Below, one piece after another: positions 24,811-34,099 of a stretch of 37,808 nt of DNA. Position 1 is the first letter of the stretch, and every line of letters begins with the position of its first letter. Origin of the DNA: Actinomycetota bacterium (GTDB lineage: Bacteria; Actinomycetota; Acidimicrobiia; Spongiisociales; UBA11373); assembly GCA_016870535.1 (NCBI GenBank), contig VGBK01000009.1, positions 1-37,808 on the forward strand. The letters run 5' to 3'. The translations under genes and the position numbers were made by a program. Below the pieces are notes generated by a model. That model worked only from the letters and a program-made list of their open reading frames with translations. It did no database searches and was not told where the DNA came from.

Positions 24811-25575
24811 TCAGTCCGCCGTCACCAGGCCGTAGCCGAGACCGAAGACGGCCCGAATGATCCGAGCCCCGGCCACAGACCCTATCCGGAGGCTTCGCGA
24901 GGCTTCCGCCGGGGGCAGCAGCGCCGTAGAGCGCCGCCCCAGCGGCGTGCCGTCCAGGTCGGCCTGCCCCTCCCGCACGGAGAGAAGGCCCCCCTCGCCC
25001 GGTCCTATCGCCCAGTTCAGGTCCGCCCCGGGCTCCAGGGCGGTGTCGGTGAAGCGGCGGACGTCGCAGTGGACCGGGAGGGGGGAGAGAGGGCCCACCA
25101 TCTCCCGGGTGACCACGCCCGATCCTTCCGAGTAGACGGGCATGTCCTCCCGGCGCAGGACCTCGAAGCTGGTCTGCTCGGGTATGGGACTGGTGGTGGC
25201 CACCAGGATGTAGATCTCGGCATCCACCTCGCCGTGGTTCCACTCCTGGTGGATCATGCCGCGCCGGCCTTCGGTGAAGCGGGCCAGGGCGCCCTCCGGC
25301 ACGTGGCCGGCGATGCGGTTGAGGGCGTCGTCGTGGTCGAAGGTGCCCCGCTCCAGGTAGAAGAGGCGCTCGTGATGACGGTGGGGGTGATGGCCGATCC
25401 CCAGGCCGGCCTCGATGATCGAGTCGTGCACCGTGACCAGGGGGCCGCAGGCTCGCACCCGGGTGAAGGGGCCGATGGACTCGATGGCCACGAGGCCCGG
25501 TGTGCCGAATTGGGCCTCGCCGAGCACGGCGTGGTCCTCGGGGGCCAGGACTATGGAGGCGGGGCCGGCGGTCAT
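24811..25575 (-). CDS. Pirin-like double-cupin protein
   Basis: A 254-residue bicupin of the pirin (YhhW-type) family. The first cupin holds GHHPHRHHERLFYLERG (metal site His63, His65 and neighbours) and GMIHQEWN; the second is degenerate, as in many pirins (SVREGQADLDGTPLG). Members include quercetin dioxygenases and redox-sensing proteins; no function is certain. ATG at 25575 has no strong ribosome site. Its first 41 codons and upstream region are duplicated at 28072-28233 as a fragment, with an almost identical 75-bp core. Confidence 0.88.
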   Translation of the reverse strand: MTAGPASIVLAPEDHAVLGEAQFGTPGLVAIESIGPFTRVRACGPLVTVHDSIIEAGLGIGHHPHRHHERLFYLERGTFDHDDALNRIAGHVPEGALARFTEGRRGMIHQEWNHGEVDAEIYILVATTSPIPEQTSFEVLRREDMPVYSEGSGVVTREMVGPLSPLPVHCDVRRFTDTALEPGADLNWAIGPGEGGLLSVREGQADLDGTPLGRRSTALLPPAEASRSLRIGSVAGARIIRAVFGLGYGLVTAD

Positions 25576-25615
25576 CGCGGGGCCGCACCGTAGGCCGCCC
25601 CGCCGCCTACCCAAG
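25462..25615 (-). repeat. Direct repeat DR2, left copy (cupin 5' end and upstream)
   Basis: This matches 28081-28233. The core 25471-25545 differs from 28090-28164 at a single base (25498), while the first nine codons and the region before the ATG have diverged clearly. Fainter similarity continues to about 25685 (compare 28301), so the divergent promoter region was copied with the coding start. Confidence 0.85.
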
Positions 25616-25757
25616 CCGTGCCGCCTCAGTGGCGGGTGTCGACGTCGCGGAGAGGGAGCGGCAGCGGCCGGGAGCATACGCTTCGGGAGGCCCCCGGGCC
25701 GGCCCCCTCCGGGCGCACCCCTCGGCTAGGTTCGCGGGCAGGCATACAGTCCGGGCG

Positions 25758-28071: not shown

Positions 28072-28194
28072 CCGGACCCTGGTGCAGGGGCCGATGGACT
28101 CGATGGCCACGAGGCCAGGTGTGCCGAATTGGGCCTCGCCGAGCACGGCGTGGTCCTCGGGGGCGAGCACGATCGGCGGCGGATGGACGGTCAT
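28072..28194 (-). pseudogene. 5' fragment of the pirin-like cupin gene
   Basis: From an ATG at 28194 the frame reads 41 codons homologous to the intact cupin, including IVLAPEDHAVLGEAQFGTPG and ending at TRVR, with one change (Phe37 to Cys) within residues 10-41. After TRVR the frame stays open but is unrelated. Both cupin metal sites are missing, so it is non-functional. It has the same orientation as the intact gene, 2.6 kb away on the other side of the secreted-protein gene. Confidence 0.85.
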
Positions 28195-28353: not shown

Positions 28354-30063
28354 TTGAGAGCGAACGCCCTGCGGCGACTGCTCGTCCTGGCAATGATCCT
28401 CGCCTTCGTCGCCGCCGCATGCGGTGACGACGAAGGGGGCGGGGTCACCACGACGACCGCCGCTACCACCACCACCGGTGGGTCCGGCAGCACGACCACC
28501 ACGTCGTCCGGCCAGACCACCACCACCACGGAACCTGCCGAACCCTTCGTCATCGAACCCGGGCTCAATGGGCTCCGGGTCGTCGACGACCTCACCTTCA
28601 CGGTGACGATGACGCAGGCCGATCCCGAGTTCCCGCTGAAACTGGCCTACGCGGGCTACTTCCCCTTGCCCAAGGTCGCCTTCGACGACCCGGCGGCCTA
28701 CGAGGAGAGCCCCGTCGGCAACGGCCCCTTCATGATGGACGGGCCCTGGCAGCACGACGTGGTCATCCCCATGAAGCGCTTCGAGGCCTACGCCGGACCC
28801 GACCCGGCGCAGATCGAGCGTCTGGAGTGGACGATCATCGACAACCTGAACACGGCCTACAACGAGGTCCGGGCGGGCAACCTGGACATCCTGGGGCCGG
28901 CCCTGCCCACCGACCAGATCGCCACGGCTGCCGCCGAGTTCGGCGACCGCTACGGGCTGTCGTCGTCGACCTCGTTCACCTACATGGGGTTCCCTCTATA
29001 CCTGCCCGCGTACCAGGACCCGGATGTGCGCCGGGCCTTGTCGATGGCCATCGACCGGGACCTGATCGTGCAGCAGATCTACCAGAACACCCGCGTGGCG
29101 GCGTTCTCGACCCTGCCGCCCATCTTCCAGGGGGCGCGCGAGCACGTCTGCGACAACTGGGACTTCAACCCCGACGAGGCCAAGGCCCTGTGGGATTCCA
29201 TCGACCATCCCGACTCGCTGGTCGTCTGGTTCAACACCGGCGGGGGCCACGAGGAGTGGGTGGAGGCTGTGGCCAACATGTGGCGCAGCACCCTGGGCAT
29301 CCAGGACATCACCTTCCAGAGCCTGGAGTTCTCGGAGTACCTGCCCCTGCTCGACGCCCAGGGCGGCACCGGGCCGTTCCGCCTCGGCTGGGGGCAGGAC
29401 TACCCGTCGCCGCTGAACTTCCTGGAGCCCCTCTACGCCTCGTACAACTTCCCGCCGGTGGGCTCGAACACCACCTTCTATGCGAATGCGGCCTTCGACG
29501 CGGCCATCGCCGAAGGCAAGGCGGCCGTGGCGGAGAGCGGCGACCTGGCCGACGGAGTCCCCGCCTACCAGCGGGCCGAGGACGTTCTCTGCGCCGATGT
29601 GCCCATCGCCCCGGTGTGGTTCCGCACCAACCAGTACGTCTACACCGAGGGCGTCGGGAACGTCCACTACGACGCCTACAGCGACCTCGGGGTGACCAAG
29701 GTCACCAGCGACGACGGCCTGGTGTCGGTCCAACTCTCCGAGCCGGAGCACCTGTTCCCGACCAACTCGAACGAGTCCAACGGGATCCAGGCGCTGCGGG
29801 CGTTGTTCACCGGCCTGGTGCAGTACGACGCCGAGACCAACGAGATGTTCTTCGCCAACGCCGAGTCCATCACCTCCGAGGACGGCGGCCTCAGCTGGAC
29901 CATCACCCTGAAGCCGGGATGGACCTTCCACAACGGTGAACCGGTGACCGCCTGGTCCTATGTGAATGCCTGGAACTACGGCGCCAACAGCGCCAACGCC
30001 CAGCAGAACAACTCGTTCTACGCCGACATCTCCGGCTACGCCGAGTTGAACCCTGCCGGCTGA
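28354..30063 (+). CDS. Family-5 solute-binding lipoprotein, circularly permuted
   Basis: A 569-residue peptide/nickel-type binding lipoprotein (SBP_bac_5 family). The signal peptide ends at lipobox VAAAC with Cys23; a Thr-rich linker runs to about 62. The body then starts with GLRVVDDLTFTVTMT and SPVGNGPFMMDG, normally about 150 residues into these proteins, and proceeds through VRRALSMAIDRDLI and GWGQDYPSP to the usual C-terminus near residue 450. Residues 457-569 then supply what should be the N-terminus: SVQLSEPEHLFPTNSNES, ALFTGLVQYD, GLSWTITLKPGWTFHNGEPV and AWNYGANSANAQ. Nothing seems lost or doubled. TTG start with GGAGG 6 nt upstream. Four transporter genes follow. Confidence 0.88.
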   Translation: MRANALRRLLVLAMILAFVAAACGDDEGGGVTTTTAATTTTGGSGSTTTTSSGQTTTTTEPAEPFVIEPGLNGLRVVDDLTFTVTMTQADPEFPLKLAYAGYFPLPKVAFDDPAAYEESPVGNGPFMMDGPWQHDVVIPMKRFEAYAGPDPAQIERLEWTIIDNLNTAYNEVRAGNLDILGPALPTDQIATAAAEFGDRYGLSSSTSFTYMGFPLYLPAYQDPDVRRALSMAIDRDLIVQQIYQNTRVAAFSTLPPIFQGAREHVCDNWDFNPDEAKALWDSIDHPDSLVVWFNTGGGHEEWVEAVANMWRSTLGIQDITFQSLEFSEYLPLLDAQGGTGPFRLGWGQDYPSPLNFLEPLYASYNFPPVGSNTTFYANAAFDAAIAEGKAAVAESGDLADGVPAYQRAEDVLCADVPIAPVWFRTNQYVYTEGVGNVHYDAYSDLGVTKVTSDDGLVSVQLSEPEHLFPTNSNESNGIQALRALFTGLVQYDAETNEMFFANAESITSEDGGLSWTITLKPGWTFHNGEPVTAWSYVNAWNYGANSANAQQNNSFYADISGYAELNPAG

Positions 30064-30186: not shown

Positions 30187-31110
30187 ATGGGTCGCTACCT
30201 GATACGCCGCCTGCTGCAGTTCATCCCCGTCTTCTTCGGGGCCACCTTCCTGATCTTCGTCATGGTGTGGGCCATCCCCGGTGACCCCATCAGGGCCCTG
30301 GCCGGCGACCGCTTTCTCCCCGAACAGGTGCGCCAGGAGCTGCGGGACCGCTACCACCTCGACGACCCGCTGCCGGTGCAGTACGGCAAGTACATGGGCG
30401 GGGTCTTCCAGGGGGACTTCGGCGACGACTTCCGGGGCCGGCCGGTCACCGACCTGCTGGCACAGCGGCTCCCCATCACCGTCCGCCTGGCCCTGCTGGC
30501 CTTCGGCTTCGAAGTGGTGCTGGGCATCGTCGCCGGCATCCTCGCCGGAGTGCGCCGGGGGGGCTTCATGGACAACCTCGTCCTGGTGTCCACCCTGGTG
30601 GTGATCGCCATTCCCATATTCGTGCTGGGGTTCCTGGCCCAGCTGGTGATGGGGGTCAAGTTCGGCTGGTTCCCCGTGTCGGGGGTGCAGCGCGGCCTCT
30701 ACAGCTACCTGCTCCCCGCCATGGTGCTGGGCTCGGTGTCGCTGGCCTACATCGCCCGGCTCACCCGCACCAGCCTGATCGAGAACCTGCGCGCCGACTA
30801 CGTGCGCACCGCCACCGCCAAGGGCCTGTCGCGCCGGCGGGTGGTGGGCATTCACACCTTCCGCAACTCGATGATCCCGGTGGTCACCTTCCTGGCCATC
30901 GACCTGGGTTCCCTGATGGGAGGGGCCATCATCACCGAGACCATCTTCAACATCCCCGGCCTGGGCCGGGCCGTCTTCGAGGGGGTGCAGCGCCAGGAGG
31001 GCACCGTGGTGGTCGGCATCGTCACCTTCCTGGTCGTGGTCTACATGGTGGCCAACCTGCTCGTGGACGTCCTCTACGCCGTGCTGGACCCGAGGATCCG
31101 CTATGAGTGA
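30187..31110 (+). CDS. Peptide/nickel ABC transporter permease, DppB-type
   Basis: A 307-residue inner-membrane permease with about six spans. It begins MGRYLIRRLLQFIPVFFGA, has the family PGDPIRALAGDR loop after the first span, LRADYVRTATAKGLSRRRVV ahead of the ATPase-coupling region, and GGAIITETIFNIPGLGR near the end. The start ATG has AGGAAGG 3-4 nt upstream. The last eight bases overlap the next permease gene. The substrate (peptide, nickel chelate or oligosaccharide) is set by the binding protein and is unknown. Confidence 0.94.
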   Translation: MGRYLIRRLLQFIPVFFGATFLIFVMVWAIPGDPIRALAGDRFLPEQVRQELRDRYHLDDPLPVQYGKYMGGVFQGDFGDDFRGRPVTDLLAQRLPITVRLALLAFGFEVVLGIVAGILAGVRRGGFMDNLVLVSTLVVIAIPIFVLGFLAQLVMGVKFGWFPVSGVQRGLYSYLLPAMVLGSVSLAYIARLTRTSLIENLRADYVRTATAKGLSRRRVVGIHTFRNSMIPVVTFLAIDLGSLMGGAIITETIFNIPGLGRAVFEGVQRQEGTVVVGIVTFLVVVYMVANLLVDVLYAVLDPRIRYE

Positions 31111-32044
31111 CCGCGACCGCGAACGCCCGTCCCCCGGTTCGCCGGCTCACGCGGGCCCCACCTTCGAGGAACTCGAGGCCGAGCCGATCATCCGCCGCGA
31201 GGGCAGCCTCTACGCCGACGCCTGGCGCCAGTTGCGGCGGCGGCCCATGTTCATCATCTCGGGGATCCTCATCGTGATCCTGGCCCTGATGGCCATCTGG
31301 CCGGGCCTGTTCACCCGGGCCGATCCCCGGGCCTGCAGCCTGGCCGACTCCTTGCTGCGACCCAGCGGCGAGCACTGGTTCGGGACCGACGTGCAGGGAT
31401 GCGACTACTACGCCCGCACCATCTGGGGGGCCCGGGTCTCAATCACCATCGGGGTGCTGGTCACCGCCTGCTCCACCCTGATCGCAATGCTGCTGGGCTC
31501 GATCGCCGGATACTACGGAGGCTGGGTGGACGCGGTGATCGCCCGCCTCACCGACATCTGGTTCGCCATCCCCACCATCCTCGGGGGCATCGTGATCCTG
31601 CGGTCGATCTTCTCCACCCGCGGCCTCCTGCAGGTCAGCCTGGTGCTCATCGTGCTGGGCTGGCCCACCATGCTGCGCCTGGTGCGCTCGGCGGTGATGG
31701 CCACCAAGGAGATGGACTACGTCGATGCCGCCCGGGCGCTGGGGGTGCGCCCCTTCCGCATCATCCGGCGCCACATCCTGCCCAACGCCATCGCCCCCGT
31801 GATCGTCTACGCCACCATCACCGTGGGGGTGATCATCTCCGCCGAGGCGGCGCTCTCCTTCCTGGGGGTGGGTCTGCAACTGCCCGCCATCTCCTGGGGC
31901 TTGATGATCAGCGTGGCCCAGAACCGCATCCTCACCGCCCCCCACCTGCTGCTCTTCCCGGGAGCCCTCCTCTCGGTGACCGTGTTCTCCTTCATCCTGA
32001 TGGGCGACGCCCTGCGGGACGCCCTCGACCCGAGGTTGCGCTGA
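31103..32044 (+). CDS. Peptide/nickel ABC transporter permease, DppC-type
   Basis: A 313-residue partner permease. A charged cytoplasmic N-terminus with a WRQLRRRPMFIISG entry to the first span is followed by HWFGTDVQGCDYYARTIWGA, the marker segment of DppC/OppC proteins. The coupling loop YVDAARALGVRPFRIIRRHI and the terminal LRDALDPRLR complete it. An extra Cys pair (ACSLADSLL, QGCDYY) lies on the outer loop and might form a disulfide. It overlaps dppB-type by 8 bp and the ATPase gene by the ATGA motif. Confidence 0.94.
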   Translation: MSDRDRERPSPGSPAHAGPTFEELEAEPIIRREGSLYADAWRQLRRRPMFIISGILIVILALMAIWPGLFTRADPRACSLADSLLRPSGEHWFGTDVQGCDYYARTIWGARVSITIGVLVTACSTLIAMLLGSIAGYYGGWVDAVIARLTDIWFAIPTILGGIVILRSIFSTRGLLQVSLVLIVLGWPTMLRLVRSAVMATKEMDYVDAARALGVRPFRIIRRHILPNAIAPVIVYATITVGVIISAEAALSFLGVGLQLPAISWGLMISVAQNRILTAPHLLLFPGALLSVTVFSFILMGDALRDALDPRLR

Positions 32045-33087
32045 TGGCCACCACCCTGAGCCGAGATGCCGTCGCCGGCCGGCCGGTAGATCCGGCGGCC
32101 CCTCTGCTGGCGGTCGAAGACCTGCGCGTCGAGTTCCGCATCGACGCCGGCACGGTGCGGGCGGTGAACGGCCTCTCCTACACCCTGGGGCGGGGGGAGA
32201 CCGTGGCCATCCTGGGCGAATCGGGCAGCGGCAAGAGCGTCGGCGCCCAGGCGGTGATGGGCATCATCGACAGCCCGCCGGGCTTCGTCACCGGGGGTTC
32301 GGTGCGCTTCCGCGGGGTCGAACTGCTCGACCTGCCCGAGGCGGAGCGGCGCCGGGTGCGGGGCAACCGGATGGCCATGATCTTCCAGGACGCCCTCACC
32401 GCGCTGAACCCGGTCTTCCCGGTGGGCTGGCAGATCGCCGAGATGTTCCGCATCCACCGCGGCCTGCCCCGCAAGGCGGCCGGGGAGAAGGCCATCGAGT
32501 TGATGGAGCGGGTGAAGATCCCCTCGGCCCGCGTGCGGGCCGGCTCCTACCCTCACGAGTTCTCCGGCGGCATGCGCCAGCGGGTGATGATCGCCATGGC
32601 GCTCTCTCTGGACCCCGAGATCCTGATCGCCGACGAGCCCACCACCGCGCTCGACGTCACCGTGCAGGCCCAGATCATGAGCCTGCTCGCCGAGTTGCAG
32701 CAGCAGACCGGCATGGGGCTCATCCTCATCACCCACGATCTGGGGGTGGTGGCCGAGGTGGCCGATCAGGTGGTGGTCATGTACGCCGGGCGCGAGGTCG
32801 AGAAAGGGCCCAGCCTGCCGGTCTACCACCGGCCGGCGCACCCCTACACCCTGGGGCTCATGGACTCCCTGCCCCGCCGCGATGTCCACACCGAGCGGCT
32901 GCGCCCCATCAAGGGCTCGCCGCCCGACCTGCTGGCCATCCCGCCGGGCTGTGCCTTCCGGCCCCGCTGCCCCTACGGGCGCGAGATCTGCGCCCGGGAG
33001 GAGCCGCCTCTGGCTGCGGTGACCTCCGACCGCATCTCCGCTTGCCACTTCTGGGAGGAGGTGTCCCGTGAGCGCGCCGGCGCCTGA
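32044..33087 (+). CDS. Peptide/nickel ABC transporter ATPase, DppD-type
   Basis: A 347-residue ABC ATPase. Walker A GESGSGKS is at 58-65, signature [14 protein letters not shown], Walker [13 protein letters not shown] and switch His in LITHDLGVV. The C-terminal oligopeptide-transporter domain holds four Cys ([18 protein letters not shown] and SACHFW), the set that binds a [4Fe-4S] cluster in some Dpp/Opp ATPases. It pairs with the next ATPase to power the permeases. The ATG overlaps the dppC-type TGA; the end overlaps the next gene by 20 bp. Confidence 0.94.
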
Positions 33088-34099
33088 GCCCGTCCACCAC
33101 GGCGAGGTGGTGCTCCGGGTGGAGCACCTGGTGAAGCACTTCCCCATTACCCGGGGCATCGTTCTGAAGCGCCAGATCGGCACGGTGAAGGCGGTGGACG
33201 ACGTCAGCTTCGAACTGCATCGGGGCGAGACCCTGGGCCTGGTGGGGGAGTCGGGCTGCGGGAAGACGACCACCGCCCGCACCATCCTCCGGCTGGAGAA
33301 ACCGACCGCCGGCCACGCCTGGTATCGGGGCCGGGACATCTTCACCCTGTCGGGGGAGGAGATGCGCGCGCTGCGCCGCGAGATCCAGGTGATCTTCCAG
33401 GACCCCTACGCCTCCCTCAACCCCCGCATGACCGTGGGCGACCTCATCGCCGAGGGCTGGCGGGTGCATCGGGGGGTGCTGCCCAAGAGCGCCCGGCGGG
33501 GCCGCATCCACGAGTTGCTGGAGCTGGTGGGCCTGAACCCGGATCACATCAACCGCTACCCCCACCAGTTCTCCGGGGGGCAGCGTCAGCGCATCGGGGT
33601 GGCCCGGGCCCTGGCCCTGGAGCCCAGCATCGTCATCTGCGATGAGCCGGTGTCGGCCCTGGACGTATCGGTGCAGGCGCAGGTGGTGAACCTGCTCGAG
33701 GACTTGCAGGACGAACTGGGCCTGTCGTACCTGTTCATCGCTCACGACCTGTCGGTGGTGCGCCACATCTGCGACCGCATCGCGGTGATGTACCTGGGCA
33801 AGATCGTGGAGACCGGGGACGAGTTCCAGGTCTACGACGACACCGCCCATCCTTACACCACGGCCCTCCTGTCGGCGGTGCCCATCCCGGACCCGGCGGC
33901 CCGGAACCTGGGCAATCGCATCTTGCTGGAGGGCGATGTGCCCAGCCCGGCCGACCCGCCCAGCGGCTGCCGCTTCCGTACCCGGTGCTGGAAGGCCCAG
34001 GAGGTCTGCGCCGCGGCGGAGCCGGAACTGATCGACCGGGGCCAGGGCCACCCGGTGGCCTGCCGCTTCGCCCAGATGGAGTTCGACCCGGCGCGGTGA
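33068..34099 (+). CDS. Peptide/nickel ABC transporter ATPase, DppF-type
   Basis: A 343-residue second ATPase of the importer. Walker A GESGCGKT is at 60-67, signature [14 protein letters not shown], Walker [13 protein letters not shown] and switch His in FIAHDLSVV. The N-terminal [17 protein letters not shown] is the DppF/OppF pattern, and the C-terminal Cys set ([20 protein letters not shown]) is present. GTG at 33068 is the start, inside the preceding gene, with GGGAGGAGG 6-7 nt upstream. It closes the transporter operon. Confidence 0.94.

Follow-up and report, generated by a model that had tools for sequence, protein, structure and literature searches.

The permuted gene and its operon

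The window, that is, the whole stretch of DNA analysed (37,808 nucleotides), contains on its forward strand (28354-30063) an uninterrupted open reading frame of 569 residues, with a TTG start codon at 28354, a GGAGG sequence just 5' of it and a stop codon at 30061-30063. The product, P0001, belongs to the SBP_bac_5 family of solute-binding proteins (SBPs), and its gene is the first of an intact five-gene operon that also encodes two permeases and two ATPases (Table 1). The preliminary description had recognised a signal peptide, a lipobox and a Thr-rich linker in one 569-residue frame and had placed the gene at the head of an intact five-gene importer operon; the sequence bore out the former, and the Pfam domains of DppB, DppC, DppD and DppF the latter. 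The lipobox cysteine was invariant in all nine of the permuted proteins of the window type, designated group 1 (g1).

Two side observations concern the surroundings of the gene. DppD and DppF (32044-34099) both finish with four spaced cysteines, GCxFRxRC...C...C, resembling the [4Fe-4S] sites that have been described in E. coli DppD and DppF (PMC12136057). A direct repeat of 122 nt is present at 25454-25575 and 28073-28194; the copies are 87% identical and 2619 bases apart, and between them lies an 834-aa ORF that matches no Pfam family. The copy at 28073-28194, which precedes the permuted gene by ~160 bases, resembles a truncated copy of the 5' end of a pirin-like gene on the reverse strand (24811-25677).

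Table 1. Features of the permuted SBP gene and of the genes that follow it in the operon
Feature	Residues	Position	Strand	Basis and remarks
Signal peptide and lipobox	1-23	28354..28422	+	Sequence; lipobox ...VAAAC23, Cys23 predicted to be lipidated
Thr-rich linker	24-70	28423..28563	+	Sequence; leads into the fold at its new N-terminus
Old middle and C-terminal SBP_bac_5 part	71-452	28564..29709	+	PF00496, Mtb DppA, VIA-align; contains Asp349 of the GWxxDYP motif
Permutation junction KVTSDDGLVSVQLS		29698..29739	+	Tight turn between the old C-terminal and the old N-terminal strand; aligned with ordinary-order relatives
Old N-terminal part, now C-terminal	455-569	29716..30060	+	PF00496, Mtb DppA, L024; ends in the cut loop, GYAELNPAG, then stop
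DppB/OppB-type permease		30187..31110	+	PF19300 and PF00528
DppC/OppC-type permease		31103..32044	+	PF12911 and PF00528
DppD/OppD-type ATPase		32044..33087	+	PF00005 and PF08352; best NCBIfam match OppD, below cut-off
DppF/OppF-type ATPase		33068..34099	+	PF00005 and PF08352; PRK11308 412 bits, above the cut-off of 408

Segment order of the SBP_bac_5 body

P0001 scored 203.6 bits against PF00496 (curated cut-off 32.4). The match came in two fragments, either of which alone was also above the cut-off, and their profile order was swapped: the C-part fragment aligned to profile positions 67-365, and the N-part fragment behind it to positions 7-67. A phmmer comparison with Mycobacterium tuberculosis (Mtb) DppA (PDB 8wd9) gave the same arrangement, with query residues 71-437 matching chain residues 130-501 (i-E 1e-48) and query residues 460-565 matching chain residues 14-118 (i-E 2e-21). 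For an ordinary-order relative, L024, the N part aligned only to P0001 residues 455-568 (61% identity, E 3e-45) and the C part only to residues 71-450 (51% identity, E 1e-130). This comparison with L024 revealed neither a second N segment within P0001 nor any similarity between its two halves. The permuted body has 499 residues versus 510 in L024, with ~10 loop residues missing.

P0001 thus does not carry its N-terminal segment before the middle part, as proteins of ordinary order do, and it meets the definition of a circular permutation, namely two complete segments, swapped and without duplication. The alignments with PF00496, Mtb DppA and L024 upheld the swapped order given in the preliminary description; its further claim, that the permutation was clean and free of large loss or duplication, agreed with the exclusive segment matches and the body lengths. 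As judged from the sequence, the SBP_bac_5 body of the lipoprotein is circularly permuted, the old N-terminal ~115 residues being placed behind the old C-terminus. We therefore consider it highly probable that the gene encodes a naturally circularly permuted, lipid-anchored SBP of a Dpp/Opp-type importer.

Cut loop and predicted structure

The same cut was found in g1 and in g2, a second permuted family described below. It falls in the loop behind GYDExN (g1) or the g2 equivalent and ahead of the strand (LxGL)xVVDDxTFTV. The length of this loop varies in ordinary-order relatives, from ~11 residues in L024 to ~30 in L026, indicating that changes are tolerated there. Short turn-like sequences connect the old ends, e.g. 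VTKVTSDDGLVSVQLSEP in g1 and FAVVDPGGRSTFVWMQ in g2.

AlphaFold models were obtained for g1 (pLDDT 95.2, pTM 0.90) and g2 (pLDDT 93.7, pTM 0.89). In the g1 model, pLDDT was high from about model residue 11, which corresponds to P0001 residue 70. The old N- and C-termini were adjacent in this model, forming a short strand-turn-strand (strands at P0001 451-452 and 456-461, with a three-residue turn between them) at pLDDT ~98; at the g2 joint, only the old N-terminal strand was clearly assigned. VIA-align matched residues 9-394 of the g1 model to Mtb DppA 151-541 (Z ~30) and residues 9-391 of the g2 model to dipeptide-binding proteins (Z 33). The structure matches of both models cover the unmoved part only; sequential fold aligners cover just 9-395 of the g1 model, so AlphaFold and homology are the basis for placing the moved segment. 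Both permuted proteins are predicted to form a complete bilobed cluster C fold in which the old termini are joined by a tight turn. The new termini are predicted to lie in the loop that formerly ran between the GYDExN segment and the strand LxGLxVVDDxTFTV. No solved structure of a permuted SBP_bac_5 protein was seen, as the PDB matches listed for P0001 and the g2 profile were of ordinary order; a missed entry is not excluded.

Ordinary-order sisters in the orthologous operon

A number of ordinary-order SBPs (L024-L031 and others) are 40-51% identical to P0001 in the C part. Those of sister lineages (L024, L025, L026 and L029) resemble the window protein in SBP sequence (~50% identity), in partner proteins (62-77% identity) and in operon layout; they differ in that the N-terminal segment stands directly behind the signal peptide and linker, unpermuted. 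At three loci (L136, L137 and L138), an ordinary-order SBP heads a dppBCDF operon whose partner proteins are 62-77% identical to those of the window, and at the permuted locus L135 the partners are 69-72% identical to them. No operon partners were found in the 16 kb around the permuted SBP of G063 (L134). Since ordinary-order and permuted SBPs head orthologous operons, the permutation arose within an orthologous operon, and the permuted SBP replaced the ordinary-order SBP inside dppABCDF.

We constructed a maximum-likelihood tree of 52 SBPs, all re-ordered to N+C. In this tree, g1 formed one clade (100/100), which had the ordinary-order proteins L024/L025 as its sister (99/97) and lay inside further ordinary-order clades. 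A tree of the N part alone gave the same picture, less resolved.

Route of origin

We infer that tandem duplication, followed by fusion and trimming, is the favoured origin of the permuted gene. An SBP gene would undergo tandem in-frame duplication; N1 would be lost behind the kept signal peptide and linker; C1 would be fused to N2; and the gene would be truncated after N2. Such a course would explain why the signal peptide and linker were kept, why the segments are intact and why both parts have a common sister group. Two observations favour it: the N part alone gave the same ordinary-order sisters as the full re-ordered alignment, and a genome of the same bacterial order (G132; G132:C437) carries tandem ordinary-order SBP genes that are 74% identical. 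Among the sequences compared, none had the N-C-N or C-N-C arrangement of a duplicated intermediate, so that the support for this route is indirect.

Domain shuffling differs from it in that the tail segment would have been taken from a diverged SBP paralogue instead of a second copy of the gene itself. Many SBP paralogues are present in these genomes, and the two parts of one protein, L075, have unequal affinities. However, the N-part-only tree set the moved segment beside L024/L025, as did the full alignment; a donor, if there was one, was therefore nearly a copy, as a tandem duplicate would be. We regard shuffling as unlikely and retain duplication, fusion and trimming as the working route.

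A second permuted family and the number of origins

The distant SBP_bac_5 family g2 is present in the window genome itself (L002, G000:C48:1055-2761) and in ~50 of 138 genomes in the order; 45 of these copies are near full length. It shares with the window protein the swapped order, the cut loop and the position of the SBP at the head of its own dppBCDF operon. It differs in sequence (~20-30% identity), in having a DppA-like Arg/Asp pair and three apparent cysteine pairs, and in its origin, which the tree tests below indicate to be independent. The nearest ordinary-order relatives of g2 (L115-L128) are ~35% identical in the C part. Outside the order but inside the class, g2 occurs in G322 and G373; in another class, it was found in G484 and G715, one genus among 66 genomes of that class. 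The proteins of the latter two (L114 and L113) branch inside the Acidimicrobiia g2 clade beside L034. This nesting, together with the restriction to one genus, makes it likely that G484 and G715 acquired g2 by horizontal transfer.

Several further features of these proteins were observed. At L129 (G322:C106), two dpp operons adjoin, one with an ordinary-order SBP and the other with a permuted g2 SBP. L002 and other g2 proteins contain six cysteines that, with one exception, are absent from the six ordinary-order relatives checked. Cys462 and Cys474 are constant in 28 of 28 g2 proteins, Cys499 and Cys510 are gained or lost together, and Cys83 is constant, as is a cysteine close to the new N-terminus. 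It is possible that a disulfide pins the new end in g2.

In the re-ordered tree, g2 formed one clade (100/99) beside other ordinary-order proteins, apart from g1. Constraining g1 and g2 into a single clade lowered lnL by 218 (AU p 1.3e-5). The partner proteins DppBCDF, which have no sequence in common with the SBP, gave a tree that also rejected one permuted clade (AU p 2e-12), with the g1 operons nested among operons that carry an ordinary-order SBP. With both trees rejecting a single permuted clade, g1 and g2 are, on this phylogenetic evidence, two independent permutations in the order, cut in the same loop. The common loop and identical architecture would also be expected if one ancient permutation had given rise to both groups and ordinary order had been regained in several lineages. 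That single origin was rejected by the AU tests on the two data sets, and the nesting of g1 in several ordinary-order clades would require many exact reversions, which are formally possible but very unlikely.

One ordinary-order protein, L075 (G373:C7, about 325313-326401), behaved unusually. It shares 46% identity with g1 in the N part but just ~35% with ordinary-order relatives in the C part, its branch is long and its place in the tree unstable. L075 is possibly a mosaic, and none of our conclusions depends on it.

Ligand site, lipid anchor and function

Asp349 of the GWxxDYP motif is equivalent to Asp445 of Mtb DppA and Asp436 of E. coli DppA, and this aspartate is kept in both g1 and g2. 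E. coli DppA binds its peptide by Asp436 together with Arg383 (PMC12136057). The equivalent of Arg383 is kept in g2 (Arg296 of L002). None is evident in g1, in this respect similar to Mtb DppA. We infer that the permuted protein works like any ordinary peptide receptor of the Venus-flytrap type and passes its ligand on to DppBC/DppDF; there are no expression, ligand or transport data. The cut site lies in what we take to be small domain II, assuming the domain limits of OppA. From this position, we infer that the lipid anchor has shifted away from the old termini and now joins the fold elsewhere on its surface.

Without functional data, it remains conceivable that P0001 is a pseudo-SBP, decaying or put to another use, which has ceased to supply DppBC with ligand. 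Against this stand the kept Asp349, the confident predicted fold, the conserved first-gene position in an intact importer operon in several genomes, and the pattern of substitution. Between the window gene and its counterpart in a same-genus metagenome-assembled genome (MAG), G013, dN was 0.068 and dS 0.364 (dN/dS ~0.19); for the moved part, dN was 0.047 and dS 0.246. The rearranged gene is passed on under purifying selection, also across the junction. We accordingly give little credence to a pseudo-SBP and keep to the inferred receptor function.

Occurrence of the g1 order and assembly

The g1 order is present in nine genomes of the order, the window genome and eight others, which represent three families (f1, f4 and f7); no g1 copy was found in the wider class beyond these nine. 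The G013 protein has the same order with 88% identity across residues 1-569. Almost all permuted copies come from MAGs, and several of the eight other g1 genomes were obtained by different projects and assemblers (contig names k87, k127 and NODE). Although the window comes from a fragmented MAG of 322 contigs without read mapping, a misassembly or binning chimera is practically ruled out as the source of the swapped order, because independent orthologues in eight other genomes share it (those of G013 and G027 on contigs of 70.6 and 61.0 kb), the frame is uninterrupted and purifying selection spans the junction. In the plasmid search, matches spanning most of the query could be two joined pieces; the best, from Deinococcus radiodurans, was of ordinary order and was rejected.

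Significance and comparison with known systems

Natural circular permutations are mostly known between distant proteins, for which the ancestral state and the route have been lost. Here, permuted and unpermuted SBPs share an orthologous operon at ~50% identity, and within one bacterial order the event occurred a second time, independently, with the cut in the same loop. The effects of permutation on folding, anchoring, ligand binding and permease docking, as well as its origin, are therefore directly testable in what amounts to a natural experiment in re-cutting proteins that still fold. Profile annotation splits such proteins into two pieces, and sequential structure aligners lose the moved quarter.

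A broader reading is that permutation of cluster C SBPs recurs at the GYDExN-VVDDxTFTV loop, where moving the anchor changes the seating of the receptor on the permease, a change selected at least twice in the order and fed by tandem SBP duplication. We put this forward only tentatively, as an idea that could prove right but that we would not yet rely on. If it is true, these recurrently permuted SBPs deserve a subclass of their own, 'Cluster Cc'.

The best structural and sequence match to the window protein is Mtb DppA (Rv3666c; PDB 6e3d, 7jls and 8wd9), a member of SBP_bac_5/cluster C. The two have in common the GWxxDYP-type aspartate and a Dpp-type importer; Mtb DppA, unlike the window protein, has the ordinary linear order, and identity is ~32% over the aligned part. 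We found no earlier report of a circular permutation in cluster C/SBP_bac_5 in a literature search that left out most subscription papers. The closest precedent comes from another SBP cluster: the permuted TpMglB-2 (Tp0684) of Treponema pallidum represents a natural circular permutation among cluster B SBPs, for which the name 'Type Ic / Cluster Bc' was proposed and a link to membrane tethering suggested (PMC4990184). The window protein does not qualify for Cluster Bc, its sequence family and fold being SBP_bac_5/cluster C. Both are lipid-anchored SBPs in which an N-terminal part has moved to the C-terminus, and in both the arrangement is conserved across a clade (PMC4990184). They differ in that TpMglB-2 is a sugar-binding cluster B protein of the MglB type with another cut site, the product of a separate event in other phyla.
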